Source of the DNA: Pseudomonadota bacterium
GTDB lineage: Bacteria > Desulfobacterota > Desulfarculia > Desulfarculales > Desulfarculaceae
DNA length: 50,257 bases
Assembly: GCA_018819925.1 (NCBI GenBank)
Contig: JAHJPG010000045.1
Coordinates: 1 to 50,257, forward strand
Direction of reading: 5' to 3'
In this document: positions 33,444-49,735 of the stretch, in pieces
Numbering within the stretch: position 1 is the first letter of the stretch
How the letters are laid out: each line of letters begins with the position of its first letter
Made by a program: the position numbers and the translations under genes
Notes under the pieces: model-generated
Databases searched by the model: none
What the model was told of the DNA's origin: nothing
The model's input: only the letters and a program-made list of their open reading frames with translations

Positions 33444-34103
33444 ATGCCGCTGTCGGTTAGGGAGCGAATATACGAAGCCATAAGGGACGAGATCACCTAT
33501 GGCGAGTTGCTGCCCGGGGAGCGCCTGACCGAAAAGGAGCTTTCCGAAAAGTTCCAAGCCAGCCGCAGCACCATCCGCGAATGCCTGCGCCAGCTGGAAA
33601 GCGAGGGTTTGCTCACTTTCGAGAGCCACAAGGGATTCAGGGTGTCCAAGCTCTCCACCAGGCAGGTGGAGGAAATCTACGACCTGCGCTGGCTCTTGGA
33701 AAGCTACGCCACCCGGCTGACCGCCGAAAAAACCACTCCGGCCCAGGTGGCCCATCTGGAGAAATTGCAGGAAGGCTGCGGCAAGGCGGCGCACAAAAGC
33801 GACCTAAAGGCCTGGCTCAAGTACAATACCGCCTTTCACAACTTCTTCTACGAGAACTGCGGCAACGATAACCTCAAGCTGCTGCTGGACACCCTGAAAA
33901 GGCGCATCTACCGCTACCAGTACATCATCATCCAGATTCCCGGCCACTTCGAAAACTACCTGGCCCAGCACGAAAAGATAATCGAGGCTTGCCGCCACAA
34001 CGACGGCCGGGCTGCGGAAAAGCAAATGCAAACTCATTTGCGGGGCATCAAGAAGGTCCTCTTGGAGCAGTTCGAGAAATTTCCGGCCATGCATCCCGGC
34101 TAG
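33444..34103 (+). CDS. GntR-family (FadR/FCD subfamily) transcriptional regulator
   Basis: A 219-aa regulator. The winged helix is N-terminal (about 5-70: ERIYEAIRDEITYGELLPGERLT, then SRSTIRECLRQLESEGLL). The C-terminal FCD domain has the metal-ligand-type Asp/His positions in YDLRWLLES, NTAFHNFFYE, AQHEKIIEA and MQTHLRGI. FCD domains bind small acids or CoA-related effectors. The ATG at 33444 follows GGAGGGAGG. It is first in the plus-strand mutase cluster and is probably its autoregulated repressor. Confidence 0.93.
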   Translation: MPLSVRERIYEAIRDEITYGELLPGERLTEKELSEKFQASRSTIRECLRQLESEGLLTFESHKGFRVSKLSTRQVEEIYDLRWLLESYATRLTAEKTTPAQVAHLEKLQEGCGKAAHKSDLKAWLKYNTAFHNFFYENCGNDNLKLLLDTLKRRIYRYQYIIIQIPGHFENYLAQHEKIIEACRHNDGRAAEKQMQTHLRGIKKVLLEQFEKFPAMHPG

Positions 34104-34138: not shown

Positions 34139-34882
34139 ATGACCTTGCAGAACAAAGTGGCCTTGGTGACCGGCGGAGGCCGGGGAATCGGCCGGGCCAT
34201 CTGCCTGGTGTTCGCGGCCAAGGGGGCCGATGTCATCGCCGCCGACCTGGACCTGGCCGCCGCCCAAGGTGTGGCCGGGGAAGTGGAGGCGCTGGGGCGG
34301 CGCTCCCTGGCGCTGACCATGAACGTGGCCGACGAGGCCAGCGTGAACCAGGCGGCCGGTGAGGCCGCGGCCTGGCAGGGGCGCATCGACATCTGGGTGA
34401 ACAACGCCGGAGTGGGCAGCCGGGCCATGCTGCACGAGATGAGCGCCGAGCAGTGGGACAAGGTCCTCTCGGTGAACCTGCGGGGCGCCTTCTTGGGAAC
34501 CCGGGCCGCCGCCCGCATCATGATGCCCCAAAACAGCGGGCGCATCATAAACATTTCGTCGCGGGCGGGCAAGGGCGGCAGCTACGGCCATTGCAGCTAC
34601 AGCTCCTCCAAGGCGGGCATGATCGGCCTGACAAAAAGCACCGCCCGCGAACTGGGCAAGTACAACATCACCGCCAACGCCATCCTGCCCGGCTTCATAC
34701 CCACCGAACTGACCAAGAACCTGGATGCCAGCATCACCACGCCCGAGCAGCGGGTGCTGCCCCGGGCCGGCCGGCCCGAGGACGTGGCCTACGCCGCGGC
34801 CTACCTGGCCTCGGACGAGGCGGAGTGGGTCACCGGCATCGGCTTGGAAGTGACCGGCGGCACCGGAATGTTCGCGGGATGA
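34139..34882 (+). CDS. Short-chain dehydrogenase/reductase (SDR) 1
   Basis: A 247-aa classical SDR. The cofactor motif is TGGGRGIG (11-18), NNAG lies at 88-91 and the catalytic triad is Ser140, Tyr154 and Lys158 (YSSSK). Asp36 and Asp38 after the second beta strand favour NAD(H) over NADP(H). The ATG at 34139 has AAAAGGAG just upstream. It resembles FabG/3-hydroxyacyl-CoA dehydrogenases. In the cluster it could oxidise the hydroxyacyl-CoA formed after the mutase step. Confidence 0.92.
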   Translation: MTLQNKVALVTGGGRGIGRAICLVFAAKGADVIAADLDLAAAQGVAGEVEALGRRSLALTMNVADEASVNQAAGEAAAWQGRIDIWVNNAGVGSRAMLHEMSAEQWDKVLSVNLRGAFLGTRAAARIMMPQNSGRIINISSRAGKGGSYGHCSYSSSKAGMIGLTKSTARELGKYNITANAILPGFIPTELTKNLDASITTPEQRVLPRAGRPEDVAYAAAYLASDEAEWVTGIGLEVTGGTGMFAG

Positions 34883-34896
34883 AAGGAAGAGGCCTC

Positions 34897-35673
34897 ATGC
34901 GTTTTCAAGGTAGATGCGCCGTGGTGACCGGCGGGGGCGGCGGCTTCGGCAAGGCTTTTGCCGAAGCCCTGGCCGCCGAGGGCTGCAACGTGGTCCTGGC
35001 CGACGTGAACCAGGATCGCCTGGAGCAAAACGCGGCGGCCATAAACCAGGCCGGTGGGGGCAAGGCCCTGGCCGTGGTTTGCGACGTGACCAGCGGTGAG
35101 GCGGTGCAGGCCATGGCCGCCCAGGCGGTGGAGAGCTTCGGCTCCCTGGACATCCTCATCAACAACGCGGGCGGCAGCATGGGGGTTCCCCGGGACACCA
35201 TCGACCAGGTCAAGGAAGACGACTGGGACCGGGTGGTGGACCTTAACTTCAAGGGCGCCTTTCTATGCACCCGGGCGGCGGCCGGCTACATGAAAAAGGC
35301 CGGCTACGGCAAGATCGTCAACCTAAGCTCCATAACCGCCCGCATGGGAGGCCAGCTAACCCCGGTGCAATACGTCAGCGCCAAGGGCGCGGTGATCTCC
35401 TTCACCCGCCACGTGGCCCAGGAACTGGGGCCCTTCGGCATCAACGTGAACGCGGTGGCTCCGGGCATAGTGCTCACCGGTGAGCGCCTGGAAAAGATGT
35501 GGTACGGCCGCAAGAGCGAACAGCAGCGCCAGGATTACCTGGATCAGATTCCCTTGCGCCGCTTGGGCACCCCCCGGGAGATAAGCGACGCGGTGCTCTA
35601 TCTGTGCTCGGATCAGGCCAGCTTCATCACCGGCGTGACCCTGGACGTCAACGGCGGCATGTTTTCCGCTTAA
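34897..35673 (+). CDS. Short-chain dehydrogenase/reductase (SDR) 2
   Basis: A 258-aa classical SDR. The cofactor motif is TGGGGGFG (11-18), NNAGG is at 89-93 and the catalytic residues are Ser145, Tyr159 and Lys163. Asp36 suggests NAD(H). It starts 14 bp after SDR 1 with AAAGGAAGAG upstream of the ATG. The two SDRs share only family-level similarity, so they probably act on different intermediates or stereoisomers rather than being a recent duplication. Confidence 0.92.
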   Translation: MRFQGRCAVVTGGGGGFGKAFAEALAAEGCNVVLADVNQDRLEQNAAAINQAGGGKALAVVCDVTSGEAVQAMAAQAVESFGSLDILINNAGGSMGVPRDTIDQVKEDDWDRVVDLNFKGAFLCTRAAAGYMKKAGYGKIVNLSSITARMGGQLTPVQYVSAKGAVISFTRHVAQELGPFGINVNAVAPGIVLTGERLEKMWYGRKSEQQRQDYLDQIPLRRLGTPREISDAVLYLCSDQASFITGVTLDVNGGMFSA

Positions 35674-35691
35674 CCAAGAAAGCCCGACTCA

Positions 35692-37364
35692 TGGACAAAG
35701 AAAAGCTCGCCAGCCTTTATCGGCAATGGAACGAGGGCCTGGTGGAACAGGCCCTGAAGAAAACCCCCGAGCGCCCCGGCTGCGGCCAGACCCCCGCCGG
35801 TATACCCATCAAGCAGATATACACGCCCCTGGACCTGGAAGAGGGCGGTTTCGACTACGTCCGGGACCTGGGCTTCCCAGGCCAGTTCCCCTTCACCCGG
35901 GGCCGCGACCCCCTGGGCTACCGTTCAAATTACTGGCTGTTTATGCAGTACGCCGGCTTCGGCGACGCGGAGGAGGCCAACAAGCGCTACCGCTATCTGC
36001 TCAGTCAAGGCCAGGCGGGGATATCGGTGGCCTTTGACCTGCCCACCCAGGTGGGCCTGGACTCCGATGACCCCATGGCCGACGGCGAGGTGGGCAAGAT
36101 CGGGGTGGCCGTCTCCTCGTTGCAGGACCTGGAGACGGTATTCGACGGCATTCCTTTGAACAAGTTGCGCCAGATAAGCCTGGTGGCCAACGGCATGAGC
36201 GCCATCATGCTGGCCATGTTCATCGCCTTGGCCGAGAAGCAGGGGGTTCCGGTGGAGGAGTGCACCCTGCGCATCCAAAACGACGTGCTCAAGGAGTTCA
36301 TCTCCCGGGGGGCCTACATTTTCCCGCCGGAGCCCTCCATACGCCTGACCACCGACGTGGTGGTCTTTTGCGCCGAGCACCACCCCGCCTGGCTTCCCCT
36401 GACCCTGTGCGGCTACCACATCCGCGAGGCCGGGGCCAACGCGGTGCAGGAGGTGGCCTACTGCCTGGCCAACGGGTTGGCCTACATGGACGAAGTGGTT
36501 CGGCGGGGCGCCCCCCTGGAGCGGGTGCTGCCCCAGCTTTCCGCCTTCATGGCGGTGAACATGAACTTCTTCGAGGAGATCGCCAAGTTTCGGGCCCTGC
36601 GCCGCCTGTGGGCCCGCCTGGTCACCCAGCGCTATGGGGTGAGCCCGGACACCAACCTGGGGTTGAGCCTGGTGAACTTCACTGCGGGCAGCAGCCTGAC
36701 CGCCCAGCAGCCGCTGAACAACGTGGTGCGGGTGGCGGTGGAGTGCCTGGCCGGGGTGTTGGGGGGTTGCCAGTCGCTGTTCCCCTGCTCCATGGACGAG
36801 GCCTACGCCACGCCCACCGAGGCGGCGGTGAAGGTGGCCCTGCGCACCCAGCAGATCATCGCCAAGGAGACCGGCATCGGCGACACGGTGGACCCCATGG
36901 GCGGCTCCTATTACCTGGAGAGCCTGACCGGCGAGATAGAGCGGCGGGCGCTGAAGATGATAGAGGAGATCGAGGCCCTGGGCGGATCGGTGAAGGCCAT
37001 AGACCAGGGCTACTTCCGCCGCAACATCGACGAGGCCTCGTACCAGTGGCAAAAAGAGGTGGACAGCGGGGCGCGCACCATCGTGGGGGTGAACGCCTAC
37101 CAGGATGAGGTCGAGGTCCCCATGGAGATATTCCGGCCTCCGGCCGAGACCCAGGCGCGCCAGATCGCCAGCCTTAAAAAATTGCGCCAGGAGCGCGACA
37201 ACGACAGGGTGGAAAAGGCCCTGGACCGGGTGAGGGCCGTGGCCGCCACCGAGGAAAACCTGGTGCCCGCGCTGGTGGAGGCGGTGAAGGCCTACGCCAC
37301 CATGGGCGAGATCTGCGGGGTCTTGCGCTCGGTATTCGGTGAACACAATGAAGGCGACATATAA
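35692..37364 (+). CDS. Acyl-CoA mutase large subunit (methylmalonyl-CoA mutase family)
   Basis: A 557-aa substrate-binding subunit of a split coenzyme-B12 acyl-CoA mutase, comparable in length to the large subunits of isobutyryl-type mutases. The TIM barrel is recognisable from GFPGQFPFTRGRDP (61-74), QYAGFG (86-91), AGISVAFDLPTQVGLDSDDP and IQNDVLKEF (195-203). By my recollection of the P. shermanii enzyme numbering, Tyr87, Gln196, Arg206 and His243 correspond to its active-site Tyr89, Gln197, Arg207 and His244. The preceding WT(I/M)R segment is replaced by WLFM (82-85), so substrate binding may differ. The B12 subunit follows. No MeaB/ArgK chaperone gene is in the window. Confidence 0.92.
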
Positions 37365-37390
37365 ATCGCACATGCCCGGGATGGGGAAAG

Positions 37391-37798
37391 ATGCCTAAAC
37401 GAAACCGCATAATGCTTGCCAAGGCAGGTTTGGACGGCCACGACCGCGGAGTGCGGGTGGTGGCCATGGGCCTGCGCGACGCCAACTTCGAGGTTATTTA
37501 CACCGGCCGCCGCCAGACGCCGGAGCACATCGTCAACGCGGCCATCCAGGAGGACGTGGACGCCATAGGCCTGAGCATCCTCTCCGGAGCCCACATGACC
37601 ATGTTCGGCAAGATTTTGGAGCTGCTCAAGGAGAAAGACGCCGGGGACATCATGGTCTTCGGCGGTGGGGTCATCCCCCCGGACGACGCGGCCCAGCTTA
37701 AGCAAATGGGGGTGAAGCACGTCTTCGGCCCGGGCACCACCATGGATACCATCGTGACGGCCATCAACCAGACCCTGGGGCAGCGGGAGAACAACTGA
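37391..37798 (+). CDS. Acyl-CoA mutase small (B12-binding) subunit
   Basis: A 135-aa cobalamin-binding subunit. The signature DxHxxG is Asp15-His17-Gly20 (AGLDGHDRG), where His17 ligates cobalt. GLSILSGAH (about 57-65) and VFGGGVIPPDD (about 93-103) complete the Rossmann-like B12 site. It begins 26 bp after the large subunit gene with GGGGAAAG upstream. It must assemble with the large subunit for radical rearrangement of the acyl-CoA skeleton. Confidence 0.95.
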   Translation: MPKRNRIMLAKAGLDGHDRGVRVVAMGLRDANFEVIYTGRRQTPEHIVNAAIQEDVDAIGLSILSGAHMTMFGKILELLKEKDAGDIMVFGGGVIPPDDAAQLKQMGVKHVFGPGTTMDTIVTAINQTLGQRENN

Positions 37799-37801
37799 GC
37801 C

Positions 37802-38224
37802 ATGCTGAAGAAGATCGACCACATCGGCATCGCCGTGCACGACATGGACGGGGCCCTCAAGGTGTTTCAGGACGTCTTCGGGCTGAGGCCCATAAAAATC
37901 GAGACCCTGGAGGAGATCAGCGTAGTCATCGCCTTTTTGCCTTTGGGCGAGGTGCTCATCGAGCTGTTGCAGCCCACGGCCCCGGGAGCCGGCCGCATCG
38001 GCCAGTTCCTTCAGGACAAGGGGCCGGGCTTTCACCACATAGCCTACCGGGTGGAATCCATAGACCAGGCCCTGGCCAAGCTCAAGGAGCAGGGCGTGCC
38101 AATGCGCGATGAGACCCCCCGCCCCGGCGGCGACGATTCGCTCATCGCCTTCATGGACCCCGCGGGAACCCAAAACGTCCTCACCGAACTGGTGCAGCGA
38201 TCCCGTGAGATAGAGGCCAAGTAG
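37802..38224 (+). CDS. Methylmalonyl-CoA epimerase-like VOC protein
   Basis: A 140-aa vicinal-oxygen-chelate protein. Metal ligands are recognisable at His7 (DHIGIAV), Glu in VLIELLQP, His in GFHHIAYRV and the C-terminal Glu in VLTELVQ. This matches methylmalonyl-CoA epimerase in length and layout. It starts 3 bp after the mutase small subunit, so it probably interconverts the stereoisomers of the mutase substrate or product. Whether that is methylmalonyl-CoA or a homologue is not known. Confidence 0.9.
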   Translation: MLKKIDHIGIAVHDMDGALKVFQDVFGLRPIKIETLEEISVVIAFLPLGEVLIELLQPTAPGAGRIGQFLQDKGPGFHHIAYRVESIDQALAKLKEQGVPMRDETPRPGGDDSLIAFMDPAGTQNVLTELVQRSREIEAK

Positions 38225-38226
38225 TC

Positions 38227-39762
38227 ATGAACGTAGCGCAGCTTTGGCAAAAGCAGGCCGCCAAATACGGCGACAAGGTGTTCCTGTATTTCGGTGACGA
38301 CCAATATTCCTACAACCAGATGCTGGCCACCTTTTACCGGGTGGCCAACAGCCTGGCCGGCCTGGGGGTGGTCAAGGGCGACCGGGTGGCCCTGATGCAC
38401 CGCAACGCCCCGGAGTTCTTCTACACCTGGTTCGCCCTGAGCTTCCTGGGGGCGGTCACCGTGCCCATCAACCCGGTGTTCACCGAGACCGAGATCGCCT
38501 ACATCCTGGGCCACTCCGGGGCCAAGGCCCTGGTCATCGAGGACGAGTTCCTGCCCGTGTTGGCCAGGGTGCCCAAGGCCGAGATACCGGAAATGAAGCA
38601 ACTGATCGTCAGCGGAGTGGAAGCCCCTCACGGAGCCATACCCTTCGCCCGGTTGTTTGAGGGCCGGGAAAAAGATCCCGGCGTGGCCATCGACGACCAG
38701 GACCCCTGCGTGTGCATCTACACCTCGGGCACCACCGACATGCCCAAGGGCGTGCTCAACTCCCACTACGGCTGGGTGACCACCGGCCAGTCCTACGCCT
38801 ACACCGTGGGCATCGGCCAAAACGACCGGGTGATGACCCCCAACCCCCTGTTCCACGCCAACGCCCAGGTCTATTCCACCATGGGCGTGTTGAACGCCGG
38901 GGCCAGCCTGATTTTGCTGGAGCGTTTCAGCGGCAGCCAGATTTTGGAACAGGCCCGCCGCTACCAGGCCACCAAGATGGTGCTGGTGCAGGCGGTGACT
39001 CCCTGGGTGTGGGCCCGCCCGGTGTCCGGCGACGACTGCCAGCACGAGTTGGACACCATGGTGGCGGGCAACGTGCCGGTGGACATCTACCCCAAGTTCG
39101 AGGAGCGCTTCTGCCTGAAGATCCAGACCATCTATTCACTCACCGAGGCCACCATGGCGGTGATGGGCCCCCGGCTGGGCACCGTGCCCCGCCGTCCAGG
39201 CAGCATCGGCGTGCCCATGGAGCACCCCGATCCGGCGGTGACCAACCAGGTGTGGATCGCCGACGAGGCGGGCAACGAGGTGGAAGCGGGCAAGCAGGGC
39301 GAGATCATCATCAAGAACCCGGCGGTGATGCTGAGTTACTACAACGACCCGGAGAAAACCGCCGCCACCAAGGTGAACGGTTGGGTTCACACCGGGGACA
39401 TCGGCTACCGCGACCAGGACGGCTACATCTATTTCGTGGGGCGCAAAAAAGAGGTGATCCGCCGCCGGGGCGAGCTTATCAGCCCCACCCAGATCGAGGC
39501 GGTGCTCAACGCCCATCCGGCGGTGGAGGAATCGGCGGTGATCGGGGTGCCCTCGGAGCTGGGCACCGGCGAGGAGGAGGTCAAGGCCTTCGTCAAGCTG
39601 ACAGACGGCGGCCAGGCCACGGTGGAAGAGTTGCAGGAGCACTGCCGCGCCAAGCTGGCCGACTTCAAGGTGCCCCGTTTCATCGAATTCAAAAGCGAGT
39701 TCGCCAAGAGCGCCATCGGGCGCATCAAAAAAGAGGAACTCAAAAAAGAAAACGCGGGCTAG
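38227..39762 (+). CDS. Acyl-CoA synthetase (AMP-forming), CaiC-like
   Basis: A 511-aa adenylate-forming ligase. The P-loop is YTSGTTDMPKG, A5 is YSLTEATMAV, A7 is HTGDIGYRDQDGYIYFVGRKKE, A8 is VIRRRGELISPTQIE and the catalytic lysine lies in KSAIGRIKKEE. The RRRGE variant of A8 is seen in carnitine/crotonobetaine-type (CaiC-like) ligases. It starts 2 bp after the epimerase-like gene. It would activate the growth substrate, or an acid intermediate, for the mutase route. Confidence 0.93.
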   Translation: MNVAQLWQKQAAKYGDKVFLYFGDDQYSYNQMLATFYRVANSLAGLGVVKGDRVALMHRNAPEFFYTWFALSFLGAVTVPINPVFTETEIAYILGHSGAKALVIEDEFLPVLARVPKAEIPEMKQLIVSGVEAPHGAIPFARLFEGREKDPGVAIDDQDPCVCIYTSGTTDMPKGVLNSHYGWVTTGQSYAYTVGIGQNDRVMTPNPLFHANAQVYSTMGVLNAGASLILLERFSGSQILEQARRYQATKMVLVQAVTPWVWARPVSGDDCQHELDTMVAGNVPVDIYPKFEERFCLKIQTIYSLTEATMAVMGPRLGTVPRRPGSIGVPMEHPDPAVTNQVWIADEAGNEVEAGKQGEIIIKNPAVMLSYYNDPEKTAATKVNGWVHTGDIGYRDQDGYIYFVGRKKEVIRRRGELISPTQIEAVLNAHPAVEESAVIGVPSELGTGEEEVKAFVKLTDGGQATVEELQEHCRAKLADFKVPRFIEFKSEFAKSAIGRIKKEELKKENAG

Positions 39763-39819: not shown

Positions 39820-40974
39820 ATGAGTAAAGTAGCCATAGTGGGCGTGGGTCAGTCGCACTTTGTGCGCGGCTATCCCGGCTCCATCCGCGAACTGGCCTTC
39901 GAGGCCTACGCCGAGGCCATGAACGACGCGGGCCTGGTCAACAACCAGATCGGCGCTTCGGTGGTCTGCTCGGCCCCGGAGTATGACAAGCAGCGCTCCC
40001 CCGCCGGGGTCATCGTCGAGCATTGCGGCCTGAACCCCCAGCCCACCTTTTACACCGAGTCCCTGTGCTGCTCCTCCACCACCGGCCTTAAGCTGGCTTA
40101 TTCGCTGGTGCAGAGCGGATTGCACGACAGCGTCATGGTGCTGGGTTTCCAGAAGATGAGCGAGATCACCAGCGCCGAGAGCCAGGAGCGCATGGGCCGG
40201 GGATCGGACATCCAGTGGGAGAGCCCCTTCGGCACCATGATGCCCGCCTACTACGCCATGTTCGCGCAGGGATACCTGGACCAATACGGGGCCAGCGAGG
40301 AAGACCTGGCCCTGATCCGGGTGAAGGCGGGCACCTACGGCCAACTCAACGAGCGGGCGGTGTACCGCAAGCCGGTGGAACTGGCCCAGTGCCTTAGCGC
40401 CGACCCGGTGGCTTCGCCGCTCAAGCTCATGGACTGCTGCGCCAACGCCGACGGCAGCTCATGCGTCATCGTGGCCAGCGAGGAAAAGGTGAAGCAGTGG
40501 GGCGTGGCCCAGCCGGTGTGGATCAGGGGCCTGGGCTCGGCCTCGGCTCCGGTGAACCTGGCCCTGCGCGAGAGCTTCAGCAGTTTCGCGGCGGCCACCG
40601 AGGCCGGACGCCAAGCCTACGCCATGGCCGGCATCGGCCCGGGGGACATCGACGTGGCCGAGGTGCACGACTGTTTTACTATCGCCGAGATGCTGGCCTA
40701 CGAGGACCTGGGCTTCGCGCCCCGGGGCGGCGGTCCCGAGCTTATCCGGAGCAAAGAAACCTACAAGGATGGCTCCATCCCGGTGAACGTGGACGGCGGC
40801 CTGTTGTCCAAGGGCCATCCCATAGGAGCCACCGGCGGCAGCCAACTGCGCACCATCGTATTGCAGCTAAGGGGCCAGGCCGGGGACATACAGGTCAAGG
40901 ACCCGGAGTTCGGCCTGGTGCACAACATGGGTGGCGTGGGCATCTACGGCAACGTGGTCATCCTGGGGAGGTAG
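39820..40974 (+). CDS. SCP-x/acetyl-CoA acetyltransferase-like thiolase
   Basis: A 384-aa thiolase of the SCP-x/lipid-transfer branch. The nucleophile is Cys83 in ESLCCSSTTG. Other active-site parts are EVHDCFTIAEMLAYEDLGF, KGHPIGATGG (His333) and the C-terminal HNMGG (His368). All catalytic positions are present, so it should be active. It is followed 3 bp later by a DUF35 OB-fold gene, its usual partner. The pair resembles BbsB/BbsA and archaeal acetoacetyl-CoA thiolase complexes; an aldolase role like Ltp2/ChsH2 is an alternative. Confidence 0.92.
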   Translation: MSKVAIVGVGQSHFVRGYPGSIRELAFEAYAEAMNDAGLVNNQIGASVVCSAPEYDKQRSPAGVIVEHCGLNPQPTFYTESLCCSSTTGLKLAYSLVQSGLHDSVMVLGFQKMSEITSAESQERMGRGSDIQWESPFGTMMPAYYAMFAQGYLDQYGASEEDLALIRVKAGTYGQLNERAVYRKPVELAQCLSADPVASPLKLMDCCANADGSSCVIVASEEKVKQWGVAQPVWIRGLGSASAPVNLALRESFSSFAAATEAGRQAYAMAGIGPGDIDVAEVHDCFTIAEMLAYEDLGFAPRGGGPELIRSKETYKDGSIPVNVDGGLLSKGHPIGATGGSQLRTIVLQLRGQAGDIQVKDPEFGLVHNMGGVGIYGNVVILGR

Positions 40975-40977
40975 ATA

Positions 40978-41418
40978 ATGTCAGCCAACAAGAAACCCGA
41001 GGCGGACCGCCGTTTCGCCAAGTTCGGCACGGTGAGCTTCACCGCCACCACCAAGGTCAACGACTTCATCGGCTATTTGGAAGACGGCAAGGTGGCCGGC
41101 ACCAAGTGCCTCACCTGCGGGGCGGTGTTCTTCCCGCCCCGGGCCCAATGCCACAAGTGCCGGGAAAAGGCCCAAATCGAGTGGTTCCAGATCGAGGGAG
41201 TGGGCAAGCTGGCCACTTATAGCGAGCTGAAATACGCCCCAACCGGATTCACCGAGGACCTGCCCTATGCCATCGCGGTGTTGGACATGGGCGGCTACAA
41301 GCTATTCGGCCGCATCGGCGACGTGCCCCTGGACCAGGTGAAGGTGGGCATGGAACTGGCGCCGGTGCCCAATGAGCTTCCCAACGGACAGCTTAATTAC
41401 GTGTTCAACCGGCCCTGA
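40978..41418 (+). CDS. DUF35 OB-fold zinc-ribbon partner of the thiolase
   Basis: A 146-aa protein with an N-terminal rubredoxin-like zinc ribbon (Cys44, Cys47, Cys58, Cys61 in GTKCLTCGAVFFPPRAQCHKC) and a C-terminal OB fold (about 75-135). DUF35 proteins bind acyl-CoA and form complexes with SCP-x-type thiolases, bringing CoA substrates to the active site. It is translated right after the thiolase gene. Confidence 0.92.
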   Translation: MSANKKPEADRRFAKFGTVSFTATTKVNDFIGYLEDGKVAGTKCLTCGAVFFPPRAQCHKCREKAQIEWFQIEGVGKLATYSELKYAPTGFTEDLPYAIAVLDMGGYKLFGRIGDVPLDQVKVGMELAPVPNELPNGQLNYVFNRP

Positions 41419-41456
41419 AGCGTTTGACAAAGGGCCGGAGAGCGACAGGTGATGTC

Positions 41457-43193
41457 ATGAGCGTGCCCAAGCAGAAGAGCGGACGAGCCCTCAATTTTAA
41501 CGACACAGTGGCCGATGCCTTGGCCAAGGGGTTGGTGCGCCACGGGGTGTCGACGGTTTTTGGCCAGAGCCTGCCCAGCGCCCTGCACCTGGCGGTCAAA
41601 AGCCACGGCATCCGCCAGGCCTGGTACCGCACCGAGAACGCCGGCGGGGCCATGGCCGACGGCTTTGCCCGGGTATCCGGCCGGGTGGGAGTGGTCACCG
41701 CTCAGAACGGCCCGGCGGCCACCCTGTTGGTGCCGCCGTTGGCCGAGGCGCTCAAGGCCTCGGTGCCGGTGGTGGCCCTGGTGCAGGAGGTGGCCCTGGC
41801 CCAGACCGACAAGAACGCCTTTCAGGAATTCGACCACCTGGCCCTGTTCGGGGCCTGCACCAAATGGGTGCGCCGCCTGGACCAGCCCAGCCGGGTGGAC
41901 GACTACCTGGACATGGCCTTCCGGGCGGCGGTGAGCGGACGTCCCGGACCGGCGGCCCTGCTCTTGCCGGCCGACCTGCTGCTGGCCCCCTGCCAGCCCG
42001 GGGAGGCGCCCCGGCGCCAGAGCCTTGGGCGCTATCCCTTGGAGCGCACCATGCCCGGCTACCAGCATTTGGAGCAGGCGGCCCGGATGCTGGCCCAGGC
42101 CAAGCGCCCGGTGGTGATCGCCGGGGGCGGGGTGCATCTGTCCGGGGCCAGCGGGGAGTTGGCCGTGCTCCAGGAGACGGCCTCCCTGCCCGTGGCCACC
42201 ACGGTGATGGGCAAGGGCTCGGTGGACGAGAACCATCCCCTGAGCCTGGGGGTGGCGGGCTACTTCATGGGCACCGGCGGAGCGGCCAAGTTTCAGCGGG
42301 AGATCATCAGCAAGGCCGACCTGGTGCTCTTGGTGGGCAGCCGCACCAACCAAAACGGCACCGATTCCTGGACCCTGTACCCGCCCGAGGCCGATTACAT
42401 CCACATCGACGCCGACCCCATGGAGATAGGGCGCAACTACGAGGCCCTGCCCCTGTTGGGCGACGCCAAGCTGATCCTGGGCGAGTTGACGGCCCTGTTG
42501 GAGGGCCTGGATTTGTCCAAGCGCCTGGCGGCGCGCCCCGCCCTGGAAAAGCGCATCGCCCAGGGCAAGGCTCGCCATCAACGGGAAGCCAAGGGCCTGC
42601 TGCAATCCAAGCGCAAGCCGGTGCGGCCGGAGAGGATCATGTACGAGCTGAACCGCCGCCTGACCCCCGAGACCCTGGTGGTGGCCGACGCCAGCTACTC
42701 CTCCATCTGGGTGGCCAACTACCTCACCAGCCTGGCCCCGGGCATGCGCTTCATCACCCCCCGGGGCCTGGCCGGCCTGGGCTGGGGCTTGCCCCTGGCC
42801 ATGGGGGCCAAGCTGGCGCGGCCCGAGGCCCCGGTGGTTTGCCTGGCCGGGGACGGCGGCTTCGGCCACTGTTGGGCCGAACTGGAGGCGGCGGGCCGCA
42901 TGGGCCTGGACCTGGCGGTGTTGGTGCTCAACAACCGCATCCTGGGCTATCAAAAGCACGCCGAAAATGTTAAGTTCGGCGCTCACACCGACGCGGTGTA
43001 CATGTCCGACGTGGACCACGCCGCGGTGGCCGAGGCCTGCGGTTGCCGGGGGATTCGGGTGCGCGAGCCCGGCCAACTGGCCGAGGCCCTGGACCGGGCC
43101 ATGGGCGAGCCGGGCCCGGTGCTGGTGGATATCATCACCGACCCCGCGGCCTATCCGCCCATCACCAGCTTCGAGGGTAAACTGGCCATGTGA
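41457..43193 (+). CDS. ThDP-dependent enzyme (acetolactate synthase / 2-hydroxyacyl-CoA lyase-like)
   Basis: A 578-aa three-domain thiamine-diphosphate enzyme. Glu60 in YRTENAGGAMADGFAR is the ThDP-activating glutamate. The central domain has the degenerate Rossmann motif VVIAGGGVHLSGA. The cofactor motif GDGGFGHCWAE (465-475) runs to NN at 492-493. The start is ATG at 41457 after AGGTGATG. The fold covers acetolactate synthase, oxalyl-CoA decarboxylase, 2-hydroxyacyl-CoA lyase and benzoylformate decarboxylase. Given the adjacent acyl-CoA mutase, C-C bond formation or cleavage at a 2-hydroxyacyl-CoA is attractive but unproven. No regulatory ALS small subunit is nearby, so amino-acid biosynthesis is less likely. 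Confidence 0.88.
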   Translation: MSVPKQKSGRALNFNDTVADALAKGLVRHGVSTVFGQSLPSALHLAVKSHGIRQAWYRTENAGGAMADGFARVSGRVGVVTAQNGPAATLLVPPLAEALKASVPVVALVQEVALAQTDKNAFQEFDHLALFGACTKWVRRLDQPSRVDDYLDMAFRAAVSGRPGPAALLLPADLLLAPCQPGEAPRRQSLGRYPLERTMPGYQHLEQAARMLAQAKRPVVIAGGGVHLSGASGELAVLQETASLPVATTVMGKGSVDENHPLSLGVAGYFMGTGGAAKFQREIISKADLVLLVGSRTNQNGTDSWTLYPPEADYIHIDADPMEIGRNYEALPLLGDAKLILGELTALLEGLDLSKRLAARPALEKRIAQGKARHQREAKGLLQSKRKPVRPERIMYELNRRLTPETLVVADASYSSIWVANYLTSLAPGMRFITPRGLAGLGWGLPLAMGAKLARPEAPVVCLAGDGGFGHCWAELEAAGRMGLDLAVLVLNNRILGYQKHAENVKFGAHTDAVYMSDVDHAAVAEACGCRGIRVREPGQLAEALDRAMGEPGPVLVDIITDPAAYPPITSFEGKLAM

Positions 43194-43257: not shown

Positions 43258-43560
43258 ATGAGCAAAGTACACGTTACCGCCAAGATCGTGGCCAAGGCCG
43301 GCCAGGCCGACAACCTGGAAAAGGAGCTTTTGGCCGTGGTGCCCACGGTGCGCCAAGAGGCCGGATGCCTGCGCTACGACCTGCACCGGGACAGCCGGGA
43401 GGGCGACGAGTTCCTTTTCTACGAAATATGGCAGGACGGCGGGTCCTTGAAGGCCCATGGCCAGTCCGAGCACATGGCGGGCATGCGCGAGCGTATAAAG
43501 GATTTGGTGCAAGGCCCCAGCCAGATCAGCTTTTGGCGGGCGGTGGACCGGGCCGACTGA
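43258..43560 (+). CDS. ABM-domain (antibiotic biosynthesis monooxygenase-like) protein
   Basis: A 100-aa ferredoxin-fold protein of the ABM/YgiN type: VTAKIVAKAGQADNLEKELL, then RQEAGCLRYDLHRD (about 32-45) and EFLFYEIWQDGGSLKAHGQSEH. Members include quinol monooxygenases, isomerase-like and heme-degrading enzymes; many are uncharacterised. In an anaerobe-like setting a non-oxygenase role is likely. The ATG at 43258 follows GAGGAGCGA. It ends the mutase cluster, 64 bp after the ThDP gene. Confidence 0.87.
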   Translation: MSKVHVTAKIVAKAGQADNLEKELLAVVPTVRQEAGCLRYDLHRDSREGDEFLFYEIWQDGGSLKAHGQSEHMAGMRERIKDLVQGPSQISFWRAVDRAD

Positions 43561-43742: not shown

Positions 43743-44438
43743 ATGCGCGAGGCCAAAATTCTCAAATTGGGGACCACCCCCTATCCGGAAGGCCTGGAGC
43801 TGATGCGCCGGTTGGCCGAGCTGAAACGGCTCCGGCCCGGTCCCCAGGTGCTCATGCTTTTGGAGCACGAGCCGGTTTTGACCATGGGCCGCCGGGCCAC
43901 CGAGAGCGACATCCTGGCTCCGCCGGAGCTTCTGGCCCGCGAGGGCATCGCGGTGCACCGGGTTGAACGGGGGGGACTTATAACCTATCATGGTCCCGGC
44001 CAATTGGTGGCCTACCCCGTGTTGGAGCTGACCGCCCTGGGCCTGGGGGTGGGAGATTTGGTGCGGGCATTGGAGCGGGCGCTTTTGGCCACCCTGGAAG
44101 GCCTGGGGGTGCGGGGCTCGCTGCAACCGGGACACCCCGGGGCCTGGCACGAGGGCAAAAAGCTGGCCTCCATCGGGGTGGCGGTCAAGGGCGGGGTTTC
44201 CCTGCACGGCCTGGCCTTGAATTTGGCCCCGAACTTGGAGCACTTCAAGCTCATAAACCCCTGCGGCCTCACCGGTTCGCCCATGACTTCGGTGCGCCGG
44301 GTGACCGGCCGCGAGGTGGACGCCATGAGGGCCACGGAACTACTGGCCGGGCATTTATGCACCGAACTGGGCCTGGAACCCTCACCATGGAGCTTGGACC
44401 AGGCCCGGACCTGCCTGGAAACGAGCCGCTTTAAATAG
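43743..44438 (+). CDS. lipB: Octanoyl-[acyl-carrier-protein]:protein N-octanoyltransferase
   Basis: LipB moves octanoyl groups from acyl-carrier protein to lipoyl domains, the first step of lipoate synthesis. The 231-aa protein has the signature RGGLITYHGPGQLV (76-89), the catalytic Lys140 in EGKKLASIGVAV and the acyl-accepting Cys174 in INPCGLTGSP. It lies just upstream of the regulator of a lipoate-dependent dehydrogenase operon, a sensible functional pairing. No lipA is present in the window. Confidence 0.95.
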   Translation: MREAKILKLGTTPYPEGLELMRRLAELKRLRPGPQVLMLLEHEPVLTMGRRATESDILAPPELLAREGIAVHRVERGGLITYHGPGQLVAYPVLELTALGLGVGDLVRALERALLATLEGLGVRGSLQPGHPGAWHEGKKLASIGVAVKGGVSLHGLALNLAPNLEHFKLINPCGLTGSPMTSVRRVTGREVDAMRATELLAGHLCTELGLEPSPWSLDQARTCLETSRFK

Positions 44439-44517
44439 CCAGGTCCTTGCGCCCCTGCCGCCCATGCAACCAGGGCGGTGGCCGCAACAACCTTGCCCCG
44501 CAGCGAGGAAAAGCGTC

Positions 44518-46491
44518 GTGGAGCAGAGAATCCCCCGCGATAAACAAAGCGAAGCCTGGCGGCAATTCGCCCTGACCGGAAAGGCGGACCGCTCCGCCGT
44601 GCGCCAGCAGGTGGCCGAATCCTGGGAACGCTGCTTCCGCCGGGGGCTGCGGCCCAACGCCCCCAAGGTGAGCGTAAAGCTTTCCCCTGCCCAACTGGCC
44701 CGCATCCACCGGGCCAACGCCGATTTCATCCAGGCCGCCTTGCCCTTCATGCGCTTTTTGCAGAGCGCGGTGCGGGGCACCGGCTTCATCCTGGTCTTGA
44801 CCAACGCAGAAGGGGTGGTGCTGGAGGTCTTCGGCGATGAAGACATCTTGCGCATGGCCCGGGACAACAACTACGTGGCCGGCAGCAGCCGGGCCGAGGA
44901 GGAGGTGGGCACAAACTCCATCGGGTTGTGCCTCATCCAAAAAGAGCCGGTGCAGGTCACCGGGCCGGAGCACTACAATCAGCGCCATCACGACTGGACC
45001 TGCTCTTCGGCCCCGGTCTTCTCGCCCGAGGGCAATCTGCTGGGGGCCATAACCCTCTCGGGCAAATCCTCCAGCGCCCACCGCCACACCCTGGGCATGG
45101 TCATCTCGGCCGCCGAGGCCATTGAGAACAAGCTGAAGCAGCGCAAGGCGGACAAAGAGAAGAGCAGCTACGAGACCCTGCTGGAATCGCTCTTGGGCTC
45201 CATATCCGAGGCGGTGATCGCAGTAAATCACAAGGGGGTGGTGACCCACGCCAACCAAAAGGCCTGCCGCATGGCCGGCCTCTCCTGCCAAAAGATGATG
45301 GGGCAAAGTATCGACAAGGTGTTTCCTGGGCAGCCCTTGCTCATGGAGATGGCCCTCAACGGCAAGGAACACGGCAACGTGGAAGTGGGGGTGGACGGCC
45401 CCCAGGGGCGCAACTATTTCATCCTGCGGCCCTTCCTTATCCGTGAGGATGAAAAGCACTGGGGCTTCTTTTTGGTCATGAGCGAGCGGAGCCGCTTTTT
45501 CAACGAAGTGCGCAAGGTTTCCGGCCACAACGCCCGCTTCACCTTCGAGGACATCAAGGGCCAGGCCCCGGAGTTTTTGCGCCAGATCAAGCTGGCCAAC
45601 ATCGCCGCCGGAGCGGACAGCCGGGTTTTGATAATGGGCGAGACCGGCACCGGCAAGGAGCTTTTCGCCCAGGCCATCCACAACGCCTCCGAGCGCAGCC
45701 AGGGGCCCTTCGTGGCCATCAACTGCGCGGCCATCCCCCGGGAACTCATCGAGTCGGAGATTCTGGGCTACAAGGAGGGGGCCTTCACCGGGGCGCGCAA
45801 GGGCGGCCAGGTGGGCAAGCTGGAACTGGCCGATGGGGGCACCGTGTTCTTGGACGAAGTGGGCGAGATGCCCCTGGACGCCCAGACCAAGTTCTTGCGG
45901 GTGCTGCAAGACGGCATGATCACCCGCCTGGGCGACAACCGGCCGATGAAAGTGGATGTGCGGGTCATCGCCGCCACCAACGAGGATTTGGTGGAGCGGG
46001 TGGCCAGCAAGGGCTTCAGGCAGGACCTGTATTTCCGCCTCAGCGTGGTGGAGTTGAACATCCCCCCCCTGCGGGGGCGCTTGGACGACCTCCCCCTGTT
46101 GGTGGAGCACGTCCTGGGGCGGGTCTCCTACAAGCTGGGAGCCCGCCAACTGAGCATCGCCCCAGAGGCCATGGAGGTGCTGCGCCGCTACCAGTGGCCG
46201 GGCAACGTGCGCGAGTTGGGCAACATATTGGAGATGGCCGCCATCGTCTGCGATGGCCGGGAGATCGAGGTGGAGCATCTGCCCCAGCGCATCTTCCGCC
46301 CCGGCCTGGCCACCCAGGTGACGGAAGCGGTGCAGCCCATGAAGCAGATGGAGACCGAGGTGCTCAAAAACGCCTTGGCCGAGTGCGGGGGCAACGTGGC
46401 CCAGGTTTCGCGCGAGTTGGGCCTTTCGCGCAGCACCATCTACCGCCGCATCAAGGAGCTGGGCATAGGCAAGTCGGTGAGCTTCGACTAG
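44518..46491 (+). CDS. Sigma-54-dependent activator, AcoR-like
   Basis: A 657-aa enhancer-binding protein. An N-terminal GAF-like sensor spans about 70-200, a PAS-like segment about 220-325, and the AAA+ domain about 345-570 (Walker A GETGTGKE 374-381, sigma-54-contact loop GAFTGA 421-426, Walker B FLDEVGE 444-450). A Fis-type helix-turn-helix ends the protein (NVAQVSRELGLSRSTIYRRIKEL). I chose the GTG at 44518 because GAGGAAAAG precedes it; an upstream ATG at 44464 lacks a site. The layout matches AcoR-type regulators of acetoin dehydrogenase operons, and a -24/-12 promoter lies downstream. Confidence 0.93.
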   Translation: MEQRIPRDKQSEAWRQFALTGKADRSAVRQQVAESWERCFRRGLRPNAPKVSVKLSPAQLARIHRANADFIQAALPFMRFLQSAVRGTGFILVLTNAEGVVLEVFGDEDILRMARDNNYVAGSSRAEEEVGTNSIGLCLIQKEPVQVTGPEHYNQRHHDWTCSSAPVFSPEGNLLGAITLSGKSSSAHRHTLGMVISAAEAIENKLKQRKADKEKSSYETLLESLLGSISEAVIAVNHKGVVTHANQKACRMAGLSCQKMMGQSIDKVFPGQPLLMEMALNGKEHGNVEVGVDGPQGRNYFILRPFLIREDEKHWGFFLVMSERSRFFNEVRKVSGHNARFTFEDIKGQAPEFLRQIKLANIAAGADSRVLIMGETGTGKELFAQAIHNASERSQGPFVAINCAAIPRELIESEILGYKEGAFTGARKGGQVGKLELADGGTVFLDEVGEMPLDAQTKFLRVLQDGMITRLGDNRPMKVDVRVIAATNEDLVERVASKGFRQDLYFRLSVVELNIPPLRGRLDDLPLLVEHVLGRVSYKLGARQLSIAPEAMEVLRRYQWPGNVRELGNILEMAAIVCDGREIEVEHLPQRIFRPGLATQVTEAVQPMKQMETEVLKNALAECGGNVAQVSRELGLSRSTIYRRIKELGIGKSVSFD

Positions 46492-46734: not shown

Positions 46735-47703
46735 ATGGATATTCCCTTGAAAACCGTGCGCCAGTTGTACCGGACCATGGTGGTCATCCGGGCCTTTGAG
46801 GAAAAAGTTCAAGATCTCTATGCCAGGGGGCACATACCCGGCCTGGCTCACCTGTACATCGGCGAGGAAGCCATAGCCGCCGGGGTGTGCGCCAATCTCG
46901 GCGACAAGGACTACATCACCAGCACCCACCGAGGCCACGGCCACGTCATCGCCAAGGGCGCTCTGCTCAAGCCCATGATGGCCGAGCTCTACGGCAAGGA
47001 AACCGGCTATTGCAAGGGCAAGGGCGGCTCCATGCACATCGCCGACGTGGATCTGGGCATCCTGGGGGCCAACGGCATCGCCGGCGGCGGCCTGCCCATC
47101 GCGGTGGGCGCGGGCCTTAGCTGCAAGATGAAACACCCGGGCCATGTGGCGGTGTGCTTCTTCGGCGACGCCTCCTCCAACAACGGCACCTTCCACGAGT
47201 CGCTCAACTTCGCGGCCGTGCACAAGTTGCCGGTGGTTTTTGTTTGCGAGAACAATGGTTTCGGTATCTCGGTTTCCCAGGCCCAGCACCAGGCCATCAC
47301 CGATATCGCCATCAGGGCGGCCGGTTACGGCATGCCCGGGCAGACGGTGGACGGCAACGACGTGCTCAGCGTGTACCTGGCCGCCGGCGAGGCCATCGAG
47401 CGGGCCCGCCAGGGCCAGGGCCCCACCCTGCTGGAGTGCAAGACCTACCGCTGGCGGGGCCACCACGAGGGCGACCCCAACCAGGGCGGCCGCTACCGCA
47501 GCAAGGAGGACATCCAGGCCTGGGTGGAGAAATGCCCCATCAAGCGCTTTGAGCAGTACCTGAGCAAGAACAAGGTGATGACCAAGAAACAGATGCAGGC
47601 GGTTTGGGATGAGGTGGAGCTGGAGATCACGGGCTCCATCGAGTTCGCGGAACAAAGCCCGTTCCCGCCCCTTTCAGAAATGTATCAGGACGTCTTGGCC
47701 TAG
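46735..47703 (+). CDS. acoA: Acetoin/2-oxoacid dehydrogenase E1 alpha subunit
   Basis: A 322-aa ThDP-binding alpha chain of an acetoin- or pyruvate-type dehydrogenase complex. The entry region has TSTHRGHGHVIAKG (62-75) and KGKGGSMH (94-101). The ThDP motif is GDASSNNGTFHESLNF (144-159), followed by ENNGFGIS. The C-terminal RWRGHHEGDP loop is typical of AcoA. The ATG at 46735 follows GGAGGG. The AcoR-like regulator and sigma-54 promoter favour acetoin over pyruvate, but that is context-based. Confidence 0.9.
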   Translation: MDIPLKTVRQLYRTMVVIRAFEEKVQDLYARGHIPGLAHLYIGEEAIAAGVCANLGDKDYITSTHRGHGHVIAKGALLKPMMAELYGKETGYCKGKGGSMHIADVDLGILGANGIAGGGLPIAVGAGLSCKMKHPGHVAVCFFGDASSNNGTFHESLNFAAVHKLPVVFVCENNGFGISVSQAQHQAITDIAIRAAGYGMPGQTVDGNDVLSVYLAAGEAIERARQGQGPTLLECKTYRWRGHHEGDPNQGGRYRSKEDIQAWVEKCPIKRFEQYLSKNKVMTKKQMQAVWDEVELEITGSIEFAEQSPFPPLSEMYQDVLA

Positions 47704-47718
47704 GGGAGGGTGAGAAAA

Positions 47719-48702
47719 ATGAGTCGCGTAATTACTTATGCTCAAGCGCTTAACGAGGCCCTGGCCCACTGCATGGACCAGGACGACAGCGTATTCATCA
47801 TGGGCGAGGACGTGGGCCGTTACGGAGGCATCTTCCAGGTGACCGCCGGCCTGCAAGAACGCTTCGGCGTGGACCGGGTGATGGACACCCCCATCTCCGA
47901 GGCCGCCTTCGTGGGCGGCGCGGTGGGCGCGGCCATGACCGGCATGCGCCCGGTGGTGGAGATCATGTTCATCGATTTCATCACCGTGGCCATGGACATG
48001 GTGATAAACCAGATGGCCAAGATGCACTTCATGTTCGGCGGCCGGGCCAAGGTGCCCATGGTGATTAGGGTGAACATCGGGGCCGGCCGGGGCACCGCCG
48101 CCCAGCACTCCCAGAGCTTCCACGCCATTTTCCAGCACATCCCGGGCATCAAGATCGCCATGCCCTCCACCCCCCACGACGCCAAGGGCATGCTCATCGA
48201 GGCCATCCAGGACGACAACCCGGTGCTGTTCGTGGAACACAAGAAGATGTACATCGACAAGGGCGAGGTGCCCGAGGAGGCCTACACCGTGCCCATCGGC
48301 AAGGCCAAGGTGGTGCGCCCGGGCAAGGACATCACCGTGGTGGCCACCCTTAACATGGTGGCCAAGGCCCTGGCCGTGGCCGAGGAAATGGCCGGACAGG
48401 GCGTGGATATGGAGGTCATCGACCTGCGCGCCCTGTGCCCCCTGGACCGGGAGGCGGTGCTGGCCTCGGTGCGCAAGACCGGCACCCTGATCACCGCCGA
48501 CGAGGGCTGCCACACCGGCAACATGGGGGCCGAGCTGGCCGCCATGGTGGCCGAGCACGCCCTTGACTCCCTGCAGGCCCCCATCATTCGGGTGGCCGGC
48601 CCGGACACCCCGGTGGCCTTCAGTCCGCCCCTGGAGCAGGCCTTCATTCCCAGCGAGCAGGACCTCAAGGACGCGGTTTCCCGGGTTCTGGAATACCTCT
48701 AG
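47719..48702 (+). CDS. acoB: Acetoin/2-oxoacid dehydrogenase E1 beta subunit
   Basis: A 327-aa beta chain that completes the E1 heterotetramer. Family blocks are MGEDVGRYGGIFQVTAGL, DTPISEAAFVGGAVGAAM (the ThDP-contacting Glu lies in ISE), GRGTAAQHSQSFHAIFQHIPG and the C-terminal transketolase-like VIDLRALCPLDREAV. The ATG at 47719 lies behind GGGGAGGG; an in-frame GTG nine bases earlier is less well placed. It is 15 bp after the alpha gene. Confidence 0.92.
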   Translation: MSRVITYAQALNEALAHCMDQDDSVFIMGEDVGRYGGIFQVTAGLQERFGVDRVMDTPISEAAFVGGAVGAAMTGMRPVVEIMFIDFITVAMDMVINQMAKMHFMFGGRAKVPMVIRVNIGAGRGTAAQHSQSFHAIFQHIPGIKIAMPSTPHDAKGMLIEAIQDDNPVLFVEHKKMYIDKGEVPEEAYTVPIGKAKVVRPGKDITVVATLNMVAKALAVAEEMAGQGVDMEVIDLRALCPLDREAVLASVRKTGTLITADEGCHTGNMGAELAAMVAEHALDSLQAPIIRVAGPDTPVAFSPPLEQAFIPSEQDLKDAVSRVLEYL

Positions 48703-48715
48703 GGGGGAGGCCGCA

Positions 48716-49735
48716 ATGCAAGCGAACAGCAAAAGCCAAGTCCGGGCCATGCCGGCGGCGCGCTTCCTGGCCCGGCAAAAGGGCCTGGAACTGGCGGCCG
48801 TGCAGGGCAGCGGCCCCGGCGGCATCATCCTGAAAAGGGACGTGGCGGCCCACCAGGCCGCTCCGATGGCGGCGGAAACCTCGGGCCCGGCGCGGGTGAC
48901 CAGCCTGGCCCGCAAGCTGGCCCTGCAAAAGGGCGTGGACCTGGGCGCGGTGCGAGGCAGCGGGCCCCGGGGGCGCGTCACCAAGGCCGACGTGCTGCGC
49001 GCCGCCGCGGCTCCGGCCCCGGCGGGGGGAGCCCTGGCCGGCCGGAAGGTGGCCGCCACCTCCATGCGCAAGACCATCGCCCGGCGCCTGTCGGCCTCGG
49101 CCTTCACCGCGCCCCACATCTATTTCTTCAGCGACGTGAAGATGGATGCCCTGCTGGGCCTGTACCAGGACATCAAGCAGGAGATTCTGGGCCGTCACGG
49201 GGTGAAGATTTCGGTCAACGATCTGCTCATCAAGGCGGTGGCCCTGACCCTGGAGGAGTTCCCCAACGTCAACGCCTCCTTTGACGGCGAAAACATCGAG
49301 GTGTGGGCCGATATCAACGTGGGCCTGGCCGTGGCCCTGGAAGAGGGCCTCATCGTGCCGGCCATCGCCTCGGCCAATATCGCCTCGTTGTGGGAGATCG
49401 CCTCCCAGCGGGCCGATCTGGTGGAACGGGCCCGGGAACGCAAGCTCCAGGCCGACGAGATTCAGCGAGGCACCTTCACCATCTCCAGCCTGGCCCAATA
49501 TGAGATCACCCACTTCACGGCCATCATCAATCCACCCCAGAGCGCCATCCTCTCTGTGGGCAAGACCCAGGAAAAGGTGGTGGCCGAAAACGGCCAGGTG
49601 GTGGTGCGCCAGGTGGCCACCCTGGGCCTGTCCGTGGACCACCGGATCATCGACGGCGCGGTGGCCGCGCAATTTTTGACCAGCTTGAAAAAGAAACTCG
49701 AACGGCCGGCGCTCATCTTCATGGACCTGGGTTGA
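48716..49735 (+). CDS. Dihydrolipoamide acyltransferase (E2) lacking a lipoyl domain
   Basis: A 339-aa 2-oxoacid dehydrogenase acyltransferase. There is no N-terminal lipoyl domain. The chain begins with two peripheral-subunit-binding motifs (about 10-44: [20 protein letters not shown]; about 59-93: [20 protein letters not shown]), each ending in a G(P)xG..xxxDV pattern. The catalytic domain covers about 110-339 with [12 protein letters not shown] and the active-site His309/Asp313 in [10 protein letters not shown]. The ATG at 48716 follows a strong GGGGGGAGG, so a missing upstream domain is not a start-site artefact. The lipoyl domain is on the next gene. Confidence 0.92.

Follow-up and report, generated by a model that had tools for sequence, protein, structure and literature searches.

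A ThDP enzyme of the PRK06112 family beside an unusual B12-dependent mutase: a predicted acyloin-type enzyme that is probably misnamed acetolactate synthase

The gene cluster

The window, by which we mean the whole stretch of DNA that was analyzed (50,257 nucleotides), harbors a run of genes in which a ThDP enzyme is encoded together with two SDR dehydrogenases, a B12-dependent mutase, an acyl-CoA ligase, a thiolase-family protein, and a set of dehydrogenase subunits (Table 1). The mutase is of the two-subunit type (35691..37798), and the ThDP gene does indeed lie in a mutase cluster, as the first-pass annotation had placed it. The dehydrogenase had there been termed acetoin-type, a name that is retained here only in the wider form of a 2-oxoacid/acetoin-type dehydrogenase: the best model for E1-alpha is PDH_E1_alph_y, at 364 bits and below its cut-off of 394, a pyruvate dehydrogenase subfamily model (cut-off 321) recognizes E1-beta with 372 bits, and the sigma-54 activator falls below the cut-off of DhaR. 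Beside the cluster, on the reverse strand (31831-33378), there is also a frame of 515 aa in which two tandem TetR-type DNA-binding domains can be recognized by eye.

Table 1. Features of the cluster, with positions in the window; genomes and loci are given by the handles used in the text.
Feature	Position	Strand	Remark
GntR/FCD regulator	33444..34103	+	in G053, 66% relative beside both SDR1 and the ThDP gene
SDR dehydrogenase 1 (SDR1)	34139..34882	+	76% relative directly adjoins the ThDP gene in G053; 68% relative in the G312 mutase cluster
SDR dehydrogenase 2 (SDR2)	34900..35673	+	in G321, G282, G053, and G312, but not G196, an orthologue adjoins the mutase large subunit
B12 mutase large subunit	35691..37364	+	catalytic-type residues retained; presumed CoA contacts lost
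B12-binding mutase subunit	37391..37798	+	
VOC protein, methylmalonyl-CoA epimerase-like	37802..38224	+	107 bits, cut-off 115
Acyl-CoA ligase (AMP-forming)	38227..39762	+	above the cut-off of none of 25 listed NCBIfam models
Thiolase-family protein, PRK06064-like	39820..40974	+	405 bits, cut-off 420
Zinc-ribbon/OB-fold (ChsH2-type) protein	40978..41418	+	adjoins thiolase
ThDP enzyme, NCBIfam PRK06112 subfamily	41457..43193	+	578 aa; the TTG at 41424 is an alternative start
Small ABM-domain protein	43258..43560	+	
LipB octanoyl transferase	43743..44438	+	
Sigma-54 activator, AcoR/DhaR-like	44464..46491	+	best model DhaR, 416 bits, cut-off 551
E1-alpha, E1-beta, and E2 of 2-oxoacid/acetoin-type dehydrogenase	46738..49735	+	
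Dihydrolipoamide-dehydrogenase-like frame (by eye)	49758 on		runs past the window end

Identity of the ThDP enzyme

The ThDP gene translates as an open frame with zero internal stops, and a Shine-Dalgarno-like AGGTGA, read by eye, is found a few bases 5' of its ATG. The three ThDP domains of Pfam are all recognized above cut-off in its product (N-terminal 87.6, middle 136.7, and C-terminal 133.5 bits), and chance is therefore excluded for this protein. Together with the positions of the motifs, where Glu60 sits within YRTENAGG, GDG at 465-467, and NN at 492-493, these domains bear out the original assignment as a ThDP enzyme that keeps the activating glutamate and the GDG...NN cofactor motif.

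The protein is a member of the NCBIfam subfamily PRK06112 (NF004772), which carries the name acetolactate synthase catalytic subunit and whose model covers residues 5-576 at 910 bits, against a curated cut-off of 673. The model for the biosynthetic acetolactate synthase itself, TIGR00118, returns 343 bits, below its curated cut-off of 538. Among the neighbors scanned, from 33.4 to 49.7 kb of the window, there is no ACT small regulatory subunit and no ilv gene, in keeping with the earlier remark that no acetolactate synthase small subunit lies alongside. The anabolic set is instead found on another contig of the same genome, C60, on which a large subunit that is cut by the contig end (TIGR00118 650 bits, cut-off 538) is followed by a small-subunit-like ORF, read by eye, and then by KARI. 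A ThDP paralogue is also encoded in this genome (contig C25, locus L083, 1447-3135); it is 37% identical to the window protein, has the stretch PRGLAGLGWG in common with it, and reaches 409 bits with the PRK06112 model, below the cut-off of 673.

In the literature we found no test of the activity that the PRK06112 name implies and no paper in which the term PRK06112 itself occurs, and the sections consulted of PMC12247030 hold nothing on the family. The gene is a real one, and its family is probably misnamed in the databases.

The active site

Residues were counted in the best 80 of 91 PRK06112-type relatives in genome contigs, a set in which the row of locus L073 is incomplete at N-terminal positions. 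Glu60 is present in 79 of the 80, the remaining row being L073, which is cut off there, and N493 is present in all 80.

In 2-hydroxyacyl-CoA lyases and synthases (HACL/S), R260 and R400 bind the acyl-CoA and R156 and R276 bind ADP, in the numbering of ApbHACL/S, according to the parts consulted of PMC11271303. When the equivalent positions in PRK06112 proteins are assigned by arginine spacing and alignment, those of the two CoA arginines are occupied by Gly and Ala in the window protein and by Arg in 0 of the 80 best relatives; both arginines are kept, in the alignment, in E. coli OXC, O. formigenes OXC, and TbHACS. The positions equivalent to R156 and R276 are Arg in the window protein and in 77 and 80 of the 80 rows, respectively. 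The inspection for an ADP site that had been proposed for this protein thus finds the arginines in place, but they do not discriminate, because AHAS and glyoxylate carboligase (Gcl) carry both of them too.

A second group of residues marks the family. H127, Y414, R436, H471, and W473 are invariant in all 80 best relatives, Q37 and N84 are found in 79 (with L073 again cut off), and Q499 in 78. All eight are absent from AtAHAS, IlvB, IlvI, Gcl, BbmA, TbHACS, and the two OXC proteins. The paralogue L083 shares just two of the eight, Q37 and R436. Conservation among the PRK06112 rows extends to S38 and H521, with S38 occurring in IlvB and H521 in Gcl, and position 500 is Lys in 67 of the 80. R436 of the PRK06112 proteins occupies an AHAS glycine position. 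At two positions that we take to be functional in AHAS, the relatives have Ala in place of Trp574 (72 of 80) and Arg in place of the FAD-side Gly (80 of 80). Judged from the aligned residues, the active site of the PRK06112 enzyme is one that fits neither acetolactate synthase nor the CoA-dependent enzymes of the HACL/OXC type.

Phylogenetic and structural placement

A tree was calculated from 31 rows, of which 14 come from the 27-row alignment A1 and 17 from elsewhere, with AcHACL left out and with some of the reference branches long. The PRK06112 proteins form a clade of 15 rows within it (support 100/100), separate from a clade of acetolactate synthases and glyoxylate carboligase (100/99) and from a clade of OXC and HACS (100/100). 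Identical groups are recovered in a tree with one extra row, with support of 100/99 for PRK06112, and the HKA synthase BbmA is a long, unplaced branch in both trees.

A profile of 27 family members, when compared with the PDB, matches BbmA with 306 bits, AHAS with 304, glyoxylate carboligase with 277, HACS with 243, cyclohexane-1,2-dione hydrolase with 219, and AcHACL with 211-213. The AlphaFold model of the window protein (pLDDT 90) fits BbmA best, at Z 44.3, followed by a fungal acetolactate synthase at 43.1, glyoxylate carboligase at 42.8, plant AHAS at 42.5, and HACS at 41.0, where rows less than 1 Z apart are to be read as tied; plant AHAS is the top match when Foldseek E-values are used for the ranking. 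The first-pass suggestion of a relative of 2-hydroxyacyl-CoA lyase or oxalyl-CoA decarboxylase is not sustained by these results, as the CoA arginines are missing from all 80 relatives, the two groups stand apart in the tree, and HACS comes below both AHAS and BbmA by profile and by fold.

The database name, and the presence of AHAS among the top PDB and fold matches, would be accounted for if the protein were a true acetolactate synthase, or another acetohydroxyacid synthase, that operates without a small subunit. Set against this are the 343 bits from TIGR00118, the separate clade, and the replacement of the Trp574 and FAD-side Gly residues, and the genome has an ilv large subunit, a small-subunit-like frame, and KARI elsewhere. 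We regard such a role as very unlikely, and the score below cut-off and the separate clade concur with the first-pass reading that this is not the anabolic enzyme.

The B12-dependent mutase

The best match of the mutase large subunit in the PDB is 2-hydroxyisobutyryl-CoA mutase (489 bits), with methylmalonyl-CoA mutase at 445 bits. We take R82, R87, R283, R326, H328, and Q330 (propionibacterial numbering) to be the CoA contacts of methylmalonyl-CoA mutase. All of these positions are changed in all six aligned members of the clade to which the window mutase belongs: R82 to N or A, R87 to M or Q, R283 to Q or K, R326 to S, A, or N, H328 to V, and Q330 to F, with T195 also changed to R. For comparison, among 44 other distinct mutases from 55 loci retrieved, R82 is kept in 41, R87 in 44, R283, R326, H328, and Q330 in 43 each, and T195 in 44. 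Y89, Q197, R207, and H244 are retained in all six clade members. Positions 89 and 207 are thus Y and R in the window protein and its five orthologues, as in methylmalonyl-CoA mutase, and not the I and Q of 2-hydroxyisobutyryl-CoA mutase (4r3u).

Ten mutase loci from other phyla were also aligned; every one of them retains R87, R283, and R326, and three have both H328 and Q330 changed. Apart from the clade of the window, another mutase group, in which H328 and Q330 are replaced by G and V and the arginines are kept, is found in PRK06112-carrying genomes (L178, L180, and L181). With 2-hydroxyisobutyryl-CoA mutase as the query, acetone degraders were not singled out.

The changed positions could mean that the large subunit is non-functional, or that it binds CoA in some other way. 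A loss of function is argued against because the catalytic-type residues are kept and a partner B12 subunit is encoded. A more far-reaching proposal is a new CoA-independent carbon-skeleton route, in which the ThDP enzyme would make or break a free-acid acyloin and the mutase would rearrange a free dicarboxylic or keto acid, and not a CoA thioester, before CoA ligation; we consider this unlikely. If the coupling were functional and the mutase did act on CoA-free substrates, it would stand alone, as no other protein with the methylmalonyl-CoA mutase fold is known to us to act outside CoA thioesters.

Occurrence in related genomes

Relatives of the ThDP protein with at least 60% identity are found in six of 395 genomes of the phylum Desulfobacterota, with the next match at 39% or less, and mutase orthologues of at least 62% are found in the identical six, with the next match at 53%, these thresholds having been chosen after the gaps were visible. 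At the level of the class, both proteins occur in the identical six of 63 genomes, and two members of the genus have neither. Five of the six genomes belong to one genus and G312 is the sole outsider, and the co-occurrence is therefore little more than one event plus an ambiguous G312. The genomes of 38 of the 80 relatives were also searched for the mutase: 24 are without a match at E 1e-100, and the best match in the other 14 is 48%.

The arrangement of the genes varies within this group (locus L001 is from genome G321, L002 from G469, and L003 from G196). The gene order of the window is kept in G321 and G282, except that the ligase and thiolase genes there are separated by genes for a LIV-type importer and an amidohydrolase. 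These additional genes, of which the latter encodes an Amidohydro_2 protein, extend over 2609-8297 of L001 (G321) and 11808-17482 of L160 (G282), and they are missing from that place in the window. The ThDP gene and the mutase are on different contigs in G053, in which the ThDP gene lies beside relatives of SDR1 and the GntR regulator, and in G196 the ThDP gene is off the mutase contig and beside LIV genes and an amidohydrolase. The mutase clusters of both G053 and G196 contain the ligase, the VOC protein, the thiolase, and the OB protein.

The mutase cluster of G312 runs in the order GntR, SDR1, TctBAC, SDR2, mutase subunits, VOC, ligase, LIV importer, a different ThDP enzyme, and amidohydrolase. 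The gene for this ThDP enzyme extends from 18180 to the end of L163 and is continued in L177. The protein is 28-31% identical to the window protein, scores 238 bits with the PRK06112 model (cut-off 673), and passes the cut-off of none of the 25 families listed. R436, H471, and Y414 are absent from it, and Gly and Leu stand at its CoA-arginine positions. The PRK06112 protein of G312 (60%) is encoded on a separate contig, where its neighbors include an SDR and a TctC; its closest grouping is with a betaproteobacterial member. As the G312 cluster has its own, different ThDP enzyme, the coupling between PRK06112 and the mutase rests on one genus. Three accounts of G312 can be given: the step was taken over by the second ThDP enzyme, the mutase pathway requires a ThDP step that falls to PRK06112 only in the genus of the window, or the two act in series.

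The G312 cluster protein groups with a second ThDP gene of locus L020 (38% identity, support 100/100). This gene is found at 14555-16417 of L020, near the PRK06112 gene in Variovorax. A further ThDP gene, at 26-32% identity, is present in five of the 80 loci (L020, L049, L050, L056, and L057), and the GntR gene that adjoins the PRK06112 gene in Pseudohalocynthiibacter has beside it a gene annotated as thiamine pyrophosphate-binding protein; because of these cases a second ThDP enzyme is regarded as a recurrent neighbor.

Neighborhoods of other family members

The neighbors of the PRK06112 genes were counted by tblastn within 8 kb for the best 80 of the 91 relatives, with the counts being lowered by short contigs and with some matches being unspecific, as the SDR, ABC, and TctC families are large. 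On this basis an SDR is found in 57 of the 80, a TctC-type receptor in 48, ABC ATPases of LIV or similar type in 33, a GntR regulator in 32, a LIV permease and a zinc ADH in 19 each, a cyclase in 11, and a class III aminotransferase in 10. The SDR is located immediately downstream of the ThDP gene in 34 of the 80, and GntR is divergent upstream in 26.

The family is also found on plasmids, including pSymA of S. meliloti 1021, whose record is unannotated. In addition to at least 80 genome contigs, 157 of 72,556 plasmid records match the PRK06112 protein at E 1e-100. As the name is unsupported by the active site, automatic annotation is therefore planting an acetolactate synthase in these replicons where there is probably none. 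Ten plasmid regions were picked by hand for inspection, nine of which are annotated; an SDR/FabG lies in or near the operon in seven of the nine, and a class III aminotransferase directly upstream in three. Genes for dihydroxyacetone kinase adjoin the ThDP gene in Azospirillum and are found 6 and 9 kb away in Salipiger, CoA-transferases are encoded near the Azospirillum relative, and GMC and shikimate dehydrogenases near relatives in Sinorhizobium and Salipiger. The CoA-transferase and dihydroxyacetone kinase neighbors may reflect substrates that differ among hosts.

The several dehydrogenases near relatives (SDR, zinc ADH, and the GMC and shikimate enzymes) would also suit a hydrolase for alpha-diketones of the cyclohexane-1,2-dione hydrolase or IolD type, where a vicinal diol is oxidized to a 1,2-diketone that the ThDP enzyme then cleaves with water. 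The family profile, however, places cyclohexane-1,2-dione hydrolase below BbmA, AHAS, and HACS, and we think this chemistry unlikely.

Proposed function

The reading that we favor, although it is held tentatively and somewhat short of an even chance, is that the PRK06112 protein is a CoA-independent, acyloin-type C-C lyase or ligase that acts on a small, negatively charged carbonyl acid made by the SDR. In such a scheme an acid brought in by a TctC or LIV-type importer would be oxidized by SDR1 to an alpha-hydroxy-ketone or a 2-oxo acid. Glu60 would activate the ThDP, the ylide would attack the carbonyl of the SDR1 product, and the C-C bond to the adjacent hydroxylated carbon would be cleaved, or formed in the reverse direction, with the carboxylate presumably held by R436 and, in the 67 relatives that have it, by K500. 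The product would then enter the module of ligase, mutase, and thiolase. The acyloin role that the first-pass annotation had offered as its second choice is compatible with this scheme and becomes the preferred class; the link that it drew to the downstream dehydrogenase is more restricted, as such a dehydrogenase was seen near the ThDP gene only in the window, L001 (G321), L002 (G469), and G282.

A CoA-linked role would have formyl-CoA and a ketone of the acetone type joined to a 2-hydroxyacyl-CoA, which the mutase linearizes, the SDR oxidizes, and the thiolase cleaves, a route that has been proposed for Desulfococcus biacutus and Desulfosarcina cetonica. It draws on the best PDB match of the mutase, 2-hydroxyisobutyryl-CoA mutase, but the Y89 and R207 of the window mutase are those of methylmalonyl-CoA mutase, the presumed CoA contacts have been lost, and the HACL/OXC arginines are absent from all 80 ThDP relatives; a mutase that has no match at E 1e-100 in 24 of the 38 genomes searched, and that reaches 48% at best in the other 14, speaks against it as well. 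The same kinds of genes are present in D. cetonica, where all are more abundant with acetone, as given in the consulted parts of PMC7888143. On balance, we deem the CoA-linked role distinctly unlikely. A point that counts against the CoA-independent reading is provided by AcHACL, the most divergent HACL, which is described in the parts consulted of PMC8760513 and PMC11271303 as having a C-terminal lid and no ADP site; the acyl-CoA ligase encoded three genes upstream of the ThDP gene counts against it too.

For the favored CoA-independent acyloin chemistry, the pairing with an unusual B12 mutase hints at an uncharted breakdown pathway. If the coupling is functional and the mutase is truly CoA-free, a new pathway of anaerobic degradation would be opened.

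Comparison with known systems

In the kinds of genes present, the cluster resembles those for ketone formylation in the sulfate reducers D. biacutus and D. cetonica, where a ThDP enzyme, a two-subunit B12 mutase, an SDR, an acyl-CoA ligase, and a thiolase are encoded together (PMC7888143, PMC4103992, parts consulted). In these same sources the ThDP step was not reached by assay there either, and the sections consulted describe no module of GntR, LIV, and amidohydrolase genes. The likeness is one of gene kinds, and the residues of the window mutase are not of the HCM type. The ThDP protein of D. cetonica is given as 77.6 kDa (PMC7888143, part consulted), versus an estimated ~61 kDa for the protein described here.

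With HACL/HACS and OXC, the window protein shares the fold, Glu60, and the ADP-site arginines, which are not specific to that group, but it differs in having neither the CoA arginines nor the NEGA motif, and in belonging to a separate clade.

A further likeness is to BbmA (8x3x, 8xod). According to the consulted part of PMC7466098, HKAs of this kind are made by the ThDP enzyme CqsB3/NzsH, whose substrates are a pair of free 2-oxo acids that it joins. BbmA is without R436, H471, Y414, Q37, and the PRK06112 insertion near 270, and its branch in the tree is separate, long, and unplaced, but it provides both the best profile match and the best fold for the window protein (Z 44.3, 1.7-1.8 A, 30% identity).
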